Source of the DNA: Pseudomonadota bacterium
GTDB lineage: Bacteria; Pseudomonadota; Alphaproteobacteria; Rhizobiales; Methylopilaceae
NCBI GenBank assembly: GCA_023389135.1
Contig: JAEWEX010000151.1
Coordinates: 1 to 11,417, forward strand
Direction: 5' to 3'
Length of the DNA: 11,417 nt
A program made the translations under genes and the position numbers. This document shows positions 695 to 2,363 of this stretch, one piece after another. A model generated the notes under the pieces. That model was not told where the DNA came from, searched no databases, and worked only from the letters and a program-made list of their open reading frames with translations. The stretch's first letter is position 1; each line of letters starts with the position of its first letter.

Positions 695-1768
695 ATGGCC
701 GAGAAAGTCGCTCTGATCGCGGGCGCCGGCGGCATCGTCGGTCGCGCGCTCATGGAGGAGATCGCGGGCCGCGCGGACTGGCGCGCCATCGGCCTGTCGC
801 GCCACGCGCCCGACGCTCTGCCGCCGGGCCGGCATGTGCGGGCGGACCTGTTCGAGCCGGCGTCGCTGGAGGCGATCGGCGGCGACCTGGCGGAGGTCAC
901 GCACGTGTTCTTCACCGCCTACAGCCAGCGCGCCACGGGCGCGGAGGAGGACGCGCCGAACCTCGCCATGCTGCAGAACCTGGTGGAGGCGGTGGAGCCG
1001 GTCGCCCGCGGCCTGCGGCACATCCAGCTGATCCATGGCAGCAAGTGGTACGGCAGCCATTACGGCCCCTATCCCACGCCCGCGCGGGAGGACCAGCAGC
1101 GCCACCCCATGGGCGTCTTCTACTACGCCCAGCAGGACTGGCTGGCGGCGCGCCAGGCCGGCCGCGACTGGACCTGGTCCACGCTCAGGCCGCACGGCAT
1201 CTGGGGCTTCGCGCTGCGCAGCCAGCTCAACATGATGCAGGCGCTGGCGGTCTATGCGACCGTCATGAAGCACATGGGCCAGCCGCTGCACTATCCCGGC
1301 AAGGCGAGCGCGTTCGGCGCCGTCTACCAGTGCACGGAGGCGGCCCATCTGGCGCGCGCCATGCTGTGGGCCGCCTCCGAGCCGCGCGCCGCCAACCAGC
1401 CCTTCAACATGACCAATGGCGATTTCATCCGCTGGAAGACCGCATGGCCCGTGCTGGCGCGCTGGTTCGGGATGGAGCCCGGCGAGGTGAGAACGTTCGA
1501 CGTCGCCGCCTTCATGGCCGACAAGGAGCCGATGTGGGCGGAGATCCGCGCCCTGCACGGCCTGGCGGAGCACCGCATCAGCGACCTCACCACCTGGAAC
1601 GCCGCGATCAACTACATGTTCAACGCCGAATGGGACCAGATGTCGTCGCTGACCAAGGCGCGGCAGGCGGGCTGGGACGGCTTCGTGGACACCTGGGAGA
1701 TGATCCCGCGCCAGCTCGGCCGGCTCGCCCGAGACCGCATCATCCCCATGCCGCCGGGCGGCGGCTGA
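695..1768 (+). CDS. PRISE-like short-chain dehydrogenase/reductase (NAD(P)-dependent)
   Basis: A 357-residue atypical SDR. An upstream in-frame start at 596 exists, but it would overlap the previous gene. AGGAG at 682-686 precedes the ATG at 695, so 695 is chosen. The N-terminus is a Rossmann motif, GAGGIVG (Gly10, Gly13, Gly16). The classical Tyr-x3-Lys pair is absent. Instead there are HGSKWYG (Lys117) and FYYAQQD (Tyr143/Tyr144), followed by WSTLRPHGIWG. This is the signature arrangement of the progesterone 5-beta-reductase/iridoid synthase (PRISE) type, where Lys and Tyr sit in separate motifs. Family members reduce the C=C bond of enones with NADPH, and bacterial homologues are widespread with mostly unknown substrates. 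Being last in a run with a TRAP transporter and a small barrel protein, it probably acts on an imported carbonyl compound. Family likely; substrate unknown. Confidence 0.88.
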   Translation: MAEKVALIAGAGGIVGRALMEEIAGRADWRAIGLSRHAPDALPPGRHVRADLFEPASLEAIGGDLAEVTHVFFTAYSQRATGAEEDAPNLAMLQNLVEAVEPVARGLRHIQLIHGSKWYGSHYGPYPTPAREDQQRHPMGVFYYAQQDWLAARQAGRDWTWSTLRPHGIWGFALRSQLNMMQALAVYATVMKHMGQPLHYPGKASAFGAVYQCTEAAHLARAMLWAASEPRAANQPFNMTNGDFIRWKTAWPVLARWFGMEPGEVRTFDVAAFMADKEPMWAEIRALHGLAEHRISDLTTWNAAINYMFNAEWDQMSSLTKARQAGWDGFVDTWEMIPRQLGRLARDRIIPMPPGGG

Positions 1769-1867
1769 CGCCAGGCCGGCTACGACCGGGCAGTCGCGGC
1801 GACCGGCGCCGGCATCCACCCTGCGCGAATGGCGCAGCGGCGTCGCGGCGCTTCGCCATGCATTCCC

Positions 1868-1952
1868 TGGTGCCCGCCGAGGGACTTGAACCCCCACCCC
1901 ATTCGGGAACCGCCCTTGTGCGGTCGCGTCTTCCCCATTTCGCCAGGCGGGC
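1868..1952 (-). tRNA. Class II (Leu-like) tRNA-like gene with non-canonical anticodon loop
   Basis: Read on the minus strand, an 85-base element folds as a tRNA. The 7-bp acceptor GCCCGCC (1952-1946) pairs perfectly with GGCGGGC (1878-1872), followed by an A discriminator and an encoded CCA (1870-1868). The D stem GCG (1943-1941)/CGC (1928-1926) flanks a leucine-tRNA-like D loop. The T stem is GGGGG/CCCTC with the standard T loop TTCAAGT (1890-1884). An extra arm CCC-GAAT-GGG makes it class II; with the G1-C72 end this resembles tRNA-Leu. The anticodon stem ACCGC (1924-1920)/GCGGT (1913-1909) is intact, but it closes a 6-base loop, ACAAGG (8 bases if the last pair opens), with no T that could serve as the invariant U33. 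It contains CAA but not in a canonical position. It is either a decayed tRNA or a tRNA mimic with a non-decoding role. Decoding function is doubtful; the tRNA shape is clear. Confidence 0.8.
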
Positions 1953-2225: not shown

Positions 2226-2363
2226 ATGTCACTGGATGTCGTGGCGATCCAGCCGCTCGTGGCGCTGATTGCAGGAGTTCTGATCCTGCTCATGCCCCGG
2301 CTGCTGAACTACATCGTCGCAATCTATCTGATCGCGATCGGCATCATCGGACTGACGAGCTGA
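2226..2363 (+). CDS. DUF3096 family small membrane protein
   Basis: A 45-codon gene starting at the ATG at 2226, preceded by GGAGAG at 2215-2220. The product begins MSLDVVAIQPLVALIAGVLI and continues LLMPRLLNYIVAIYLIAIGI, ending IGLTS. It is two short hydrophobic helices (about residues 7-23 and 28-43) separated by MPRLLN, the pattern and length typical of DUF3096 proteins. These are small inner-membrane proteins of unknown function, common in Proteobacteria. The match to the family is strong despite the short length, because nearly the whole sequence follows the family pattern (IQP-LxALIAG-LIL-xPRLLNYIVAIYL-IGI-GL). The EcfG-type promoter motif upstream suggests stress induction. The next gene begins 68 bp downstream on the same strand. 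Confidence 0.88.
   Translation: MSLDVVAIQPLVALIAGVLILLMPRLLNYIVAIYLIAIGIIGLTS

Follow-up and report, generated by a model that had tools for sequence, protein, structure and literature searches.

The window, the whole stretch of 11,417 nucleotides analysed here, holds a tRNA-Leu-like element between two protein-coding genes. The element lies at 1868..1952, where the first-pass annotation had rightly placed it, and ARAGORN assigns it to the minus strand, which that annotation had left unstated. It points towards a gene for a PRISE-like reductase and is flanked on its other side by a DUF3096 gene, beyond which follow genes for a lytic transglycosylase, pyruvate phosphate dikinase, a cell wall hydrolase, a LysR regulator, DoxX and a DUF2339 protein. 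The best named matches of the lytic transglycosylase come from Microbaculum, Kaustia, Rhodoligotrophos and Agaricicola (60-65% identity), which suggests that the host belongs to a sparsely sampled branch close to these genera. Four proteins near the element gave no phage family match. The features of the locus are:

695-1768, plus strand: PRISE-like reductase gene
1868..1952, minus strand: non-decoding tRNA-Leu-like element, 85 nt including the encoded CCA (ARAGORN, R1, RF00005)
1868..1871, minus strand: discriminator A73 and encoded CCA
1879..1895, minus strand: T arm, GGGGG/CCCTC with loop TTCAAGT
1896..1908, minus strand: long variable arm with a 3-pair stem
1909..1924, minus strand: anticodon arm, 5-pair stem and 6-base loop ACAAGG at 1914-1919, without T33
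1926..1943, minus strand: D arm, 3-pair stem and 12-base loop containing GGGG
1946..1952, minus strand: 5' strand of the acceptor stem, pairing with 1872-1878, 7/7 G-C
2226-2363, plus strand: DUF3096 gene

A GC-rich hairpin without a T run directly follows the encoded CCA (1790-1867, minus strand) and may terminate both of the convergent genes. A sigma-70-like promoter and a T-tailed terminator were looked for at the element, and none was found. When the promoter scan was set against shuffled sequences, the fraction at least as good was 0.22 for the element and at most 0.04 for 4 of 17 real tRNA-Leu genes; since the scan is clear for only these four, its empty result at the element says little.

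Cloverleaf and anticodon loop

All 23 stem pairs of the element form (acceptor 7, D 3, anticodon 5, variable 3, T 5), the acceptor stem reading GCCCGCC/GGCGGGC and the anticodon stem ACCGC/GCGGT, with one G-U among the five pairs of the T stem. The intact helices, the acceptor stem of seven G-C pairs and the encoded CCA that had been claimed for the element are thus borne out, as is the six-base loop ACAAGG without U33, which appears in the sequence and in the predicted fold. The element has the class II cloverleaf with intact stems of a functional tRNA-Leu and lacks the seven-base loop with U33 of such a tRNA, leaving it without standard-loop decoding. Among the 32 positions invariant in 16 ordinary tRNA-Leu genes (alignment A3, read by hand), 31 are kept and T33 is lost. 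Of the LeuRS identity positions given in PMC9976931, the element retains A73, U8/A14, A15/U48, G18G19 and U54/A58; its longer D loop makes A20a ambiguous. At the 3' end, its final 30-34 bases agree at 90-97% with the corresponding end of several ordinary tRNA-Leu and tRNA-Thr genes.

A covariance model built from 16 ordinary tRNA-Leu genes (R1) scores the element at 80.5 bits (E 4.9e-18 for the window). The same model gives 78-102 bits for 107 tRNA-Leu genes of 23 related genomes and 65.5 bits for one more; the score of the element lies inside the range of real tRNA-Leu genes and its tRNA-Leu identity is beyond chance. The Rfam tRNA model (RF00005) reaches 35.4 bits, with a cut-off of 29, when only 1860-1960 is searched, and 55-65 bits for five ordinary tRNA-Leu genes; an Rfam scan of the whole window missed the element. 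The folding energy is ordinary (z -1.06, 31 of 200 shuffles folding at least as well), and the predicted fold is the form with the six-base anticodon loop.

The element was further compared with all 108 places that score as tRNA-Leu by R1 in the 23 related genomes. Every one of these has an anticodon loop of seven bases with T33, a pyrimidine at position 32 and GG or AA at positions 36-37, whereas the loop of the element, aligned as a deletion of U33, has A at 32 and G after A36. The D loop measures 11 bases in 106 of the 108 genes and 10 in the other two, as opposed to 12 in the element, and GGGG is absent from the first 26 bases of all of them; the D-loop GGGG is likewise absent from a larger set of 135 tRNA-Leu genes, mobile ones included. 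The element therefore departs from ordinary tRNA-Leu mainly in the anticodon loop, and in addition in a D loop one base longer.

As the element is known from a single contig, an ordinary tRNA-Leu altered by a sequencing or assembly error has to be considered. ACAAGG is at least four edits away from each of the seven loop types found in the 108 genes, so that no single wrong base can account for it, and its D loop exceeds those of all 108 genes in length; an error is accordingly very improbable. A second alternative comes from ARAGORN itself, which reports 1868-1952 (minus strand) as "tRNA-???" with a four-base anticodon, that is, an eight-base loop containing CAAG, as might suit an unusual decoding, frameshifting or quadruplet tRNA. 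Variants of loop length do occur in tRNAs of mobile elements, where 2 of 178 tRNAs from nine plasmid or viral stretches have a loop of six or eight bases. The eight-base reading, however, requires a stem pair to be opened and still places no U at 33, and the predicted fold has the six-base loop, which makes unusual decoding a highly unlikely explanation.

Decay or selection on the shape

The first-pass annotation had reasoned that random decay should strike the stems as well as the loop, and this holds in a neutral simulation in which random mutations were accumulated until a given number of loop sites had been hit (20,000 runs each). With four loop sites hit, a single run in 20,000 was left without a broken pair (0.00005), 12 pairs being broken on average; the corresponding fractions were 0.0017 for three sites, 0.016 for two and 0.14 for one. 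Decay of a different appearance is seen in a related genome, where an extra tRNA-Leu(GAG) (L189 67-153, minus strand; R1 65.5 bits) no longer forms all of its stem pairs, lacks CCA and carries an altered T loop, its anticodon loop being normal and an intact tRNA-Leu(GAG) being present in the same genome. This contrast is a single example from a fragmentary assembly. Taken together, the simulation, the conserved positions and the decaying copy favour selection having acted on all of the element except its loop.

The main rival is a recently dead tRNA-Leu gene, perhaps derived from a mobile element, in which a template switch rewrote the anticodon hairpin and the remainder has not yet decayed. 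A single template switch in a hairpin can change the stem together with the loop and still yield a fully paired stem. The argument for selection is weakened accordingly, because one such event in a gene that died recently would produce the same pattern. Several further observations fit a dead gene: the promoter scans showed nothing at the element, and the related genomes carry ordinary tRNA-Leu of all five isoacceptor kinds, so that an additional copy would be dispensable, one of these genomes indeed holding the decaying extra copy described above. Against it stand the improbability of stepwise neutral decay in the simulation and the fact that no pair, and no invariant position of alignment A3 besides T33, has been lost. 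Overall, a dead gene has somewhat less than an even chance of being the correct explanation.

Relatives, the phage element and descent

According to the first-pass annotation, absence from close relatives would point to a pseudogene. This is in part what was found, since the nearest genomes examined hold no such element, and that too agrees with a dead gene. The covariance search that had been proposed yielded one distant relative in a phage and no set of orthologues in which compensatory changes could be counted. BLAST of 397 genomes of the order gave matches in 12 (E 1e-5 or better), 11 of them to ordinary tRNA-Leu or tRNA-Thr genes and one, in genome G087, to a tRNA-like element in a phage region for which ARAGORN makes no call. 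Among 385 genomes of the class, nine had a match at 1e-6, all to ordinary tRNA-Leu or tRNA-Thr genes; in both searches at most two candidates per genome were considered among the matches listed, so that a weak relative could escape. Within the families to which two of the nearest genomes belong, no such element was found (0 of 3 genomes with a match; 5 of 8 matching at tRNA-Leu(UAG) genes). R1, applied to 23 genomes, returned the G087 locus as the only non-decoding tRNA-Leu-like place among the matches listed (to about 47 bits), two low-scoring candidates in relatives proving to be a tRNA-Tyr and the decaying tRNA-Leu(GAG) described above, the loop of which is normal.

Searches by pattern and by neighbourhood gave a similar picture. 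A pattern combining the GGGG D loop and the T arm was found in one of 327 genomes of the order and one of 190 genomes of the class, both times G087, and its sole tRNA-like place among viral contigs was the phage of G087. The viral pattern scans returned this one phage as the only place resembling the element, one further match being a tRNA-Met call. No tRNA was called in 11 DUF3096 loci of relatives (11 of 20 genomes, the other nine giving no match) or in ten of their lytic transglycosylase loci, about 3-4 kb each. Scanning contigs with only the neighbouring lytic transglycosylase as the query gave no relative; a second scan, queried with an alignment of 32 transglycosylase homologues, yielded 80 loci without a tRNA-Leu call, in which matches to the element did not exceed 14 bases. 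Matches of the element in phage records were confined to its 3' half, and in 5 of 21 plasmid records a match covered at least 80% of the element, each time at a tRNA-Leu gene with a normal seven-base loop. A scan with words from the acceptor stem and D arm gave 18 contigs, with a tRNA-Leu at that place in two, both UAA with seven-base loops.

The one full-length relative found is the phage element:

L105 1959-2043 (the same in L091 and L190): phage element, in a tailed phage from the same order as the window

It follows a tRNA-Ser, a second tRNA-like gene and a tRNA-Arg and precedes HNH, terminase and portal genes. Compared with the window element it keeps 22 of 23 pairs, and its anticodon stem (ATCGC/GCGAT) is closed by a GCAA tetraloop and is thus non-decoding; it has T in place of A73 and no CCA. 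R1 scores it at 57.2 bits, and the Rfam tRNA model gives no match at E 1. Folded alone, the 85 bases are not predicted to form a cloverleaf; with 7 and 6 flanking bases the predicted fold is cloverleaf-like, with an additional outer helix of six pairs and a shifted D stem. The second tRNA-like gene beside it (L105 1462-1547) has a seven-base loop CCCGAAA with C at 33 and no ARAGORN call, and its copy in L091 gives a weak Rfam tRNA-Sec match (32.3 bits, cut-off 47). Among 61 genomes of the family of G087, the phage element was found in G087 only, and none was seen in the 12-20 kb around the terminase of four phage records whose terminases are related. Two partial matches to the phage element in a genome of that family were set aside, one (L146) reading as coding sequence without a tRNA-Leu model match and the other being an ordinary tRNA-Leu.

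Between the window and phage elements, 16 pairs are identical, six are changed on both sides with pairing kept and one is broken. The 5' half of the phage element scores 118 with the window element and at most 66 with 135 tRNA-Leu genes, and its full length 191 versus at most 158; the window element, in turn, scores at least 191 over its full length with 16 of the 135 ordinary tRNA-Leu genes, and up to 264. In a tree of 60 sequences with very few columns, the window element falls beside tRNA-Leu(UAA) whereas the phage element falls beside tRNA-Leu(CAA), with weak support, and holding both as one clade costs 5.5 log units (p-AU 0.366, not rejected). The comparison is therefore suggestive of common descent, which the tree neither supports nor rejects. 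If common descent is true, the six double changes would be direct evidence for selection on the shape after the loss of decoding; if the lines are independent, they would carry no information on selection after the loss. The phage element likewise combines mostly kept stems with a non-decoding loop, which speaks against a dead gene.

Over its full length, the element is about 80% identical to tRNA-Leu of actinobacterial megaplasmid tRNA arrays and 77% to an alphaproteobacterial tRNA-Leu(UAA), the latter lying outside the 98 tRNA-Leu genes of its own relatives, with which identity is at most 72%. That these best full-length matches are ordinary tRNA-Leu genes is consistent with a dead gene. Seven-base loops without T33 occur in 4 of 176 mobile tRNAs, as opposed to no loop oddities in the 108 related tRNA-Leu genes, and a mobile origin of the element, by phage or plasmid, is plausible from these comparisons. 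A second copy of the tRNA end, as at an integration site, was looked for within the window and not found. Among the mobile stretches, three Curtobacterium megaplasmids (L107, L108 and L111) each have 22 to 29 ARAGORN tRNA calls in 8 kb with a tmRNA call inside the array, a Paenibacillus plasmid array has a tRNA call with an eight-base anticodon loop (L112 3296-3365), and a 201-kb viral contig has one with a six-base loop (L304 1821-1892).

Interpretation and comparison with known systems

The reading tentatively preferred here is that the element is a gene for a tRNA-Leu-shaped RNA without normal codon reading, the shape of which has been selected, and that this RNA probably serves as a tRNA mimic (probability about 0.42). 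Decoding would have been lost first and the shape then kept by selection. The RNA would be processed like a tRNA, its acceptor, elbow and variable arm binding tRNA-handling proteins, and its retained identity positions suggest that LeuRS could charge it. Its most likely use would be that of a mimic, either as a leucyl-tRNA that never enters decoding or as a decoy for proteins that bind or cut tRNAs, and its descent may be from a phage or plasmid. That only one copy of the element is known argues against a functional mimic. Selection on the shape, as originally suggested for the element, gains from the simulation, the decaying copy and the phage relative, and loses from the absence of the element in the nearest genomes examined and from a possible template switch. 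A tRNA mimic and a recently dead gene are consequently about equally likely, and the sequence alone cannot separate them.

Two further readings can be weighed beside this one. L/F-transferase performs N-terminal leucylation, and a charged, non-decoding element could act as a leucyl donor in such a reaction or in the synthesis of lipids, cell wall or peptide products. The retained A73, CCA and LeuRS tertiary identity positions would suit a donor, and non-ribosomal tRNA roles exist in bacteria according to PMC8007984. However, the window proteins with a Pfam assignment include no tRNA-dependent transferase, and the phage relative lacks A73 and CCA; a leucyl donor is improbable. The loss of A73 and CCA in the phage relative also makes a charging role shared by both elements unlikely. 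Alternatively, the two elements may represent a small, phage-moved family of tRNA-Leu-shaped RNAs in Hyphomicrobiales-type hosts, in which decoding was lost once and the shape kept, the RNAs acting as decoys or mimics for tRNA-handling or tRNA-cutting proteins. One copy would then be chromosomal and keep intact charging signals, and the other would reside in a tailed phage, its anticodon loop being closed off by the GCAA tetraloop. Such a family is rather doubtful.

Should the RNA of the preferred reading be both transcribed and aminoacylated, it would be a natural leucyl-tRNA excluded from translation and would offer a handle on the tRNA shape outside decoding, with a bearing on whether phages spread tRNA mimics. 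If the gene is dead, it warns that a pseudogene may still show a complete cloverleaf and an encoded CCA and be listed as "tRNA-???" by annotation tools.

With ordinary bacterial tRNA-Leu (RF00005), the element shares the stems, the long variable arm, A73, CCA, the T loop and a model score within range, and it differs in its six-base anticodon loop without U33 and its D loop of 12 rather than 10-11 bases. According to PMC9976931, leucine charging in E. coli is decided by A73 and by contacts between the D and T loops, and an E. coli tRNA-Leu that lacks the anticodon arm and the variable arm still accepts leucine. Charging of the element would therefore be a fair inference, as A73, CCA and the tertiary positions are kept, and decoding would not.

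Several unusual bacterial tRNAs invite comparison. The tRNA-Other of Bacillus cereus, like the element a tRNA-like RNA and judged to be non-translational, keeps a Trp anticodon and is poorly charged with lysine; it is transcribed within a longer RNA, lies beside a genomic island, and its deletion has a demonstrated phenotype (PMC3399842). The element differs from it in having lost the loop. An unusual tRNA-Gly isoacceptor of Staphylococcus aureus, also tRNA-shaped, is cited for a non-canonical function and carries its variations in the D and T loops (PMC8007984), whereas the change in the element concerns the anticodon loop. The same source describes bacterial tRNA roles outside the ribosome. 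Phage tRNAs with anticodon-loop mutations directed against host anticodon nucleases resemble the element in having their changes concentrated in that loop (PMC10264068). These tRNAs are proposed to serve translation still, unlike the element, the loop of which cannot decode normally and which has no phage genes among the window proteins tested. Allo-tRNAs and allo-tRNA-like pseudogenes are likewise irregular tRNA-like genes with a long variable arm outside the normal set (PMC7609411). Their defining feature is an acceptor domain of 8/4 or 9/3, as opposed to 7/5 in the element, with its acceptor stem of seven pairs and T stem of five. The element belongs with the bacterial pseudo-tRNAs, as a case in which the anticodon loop was the part that was lost.
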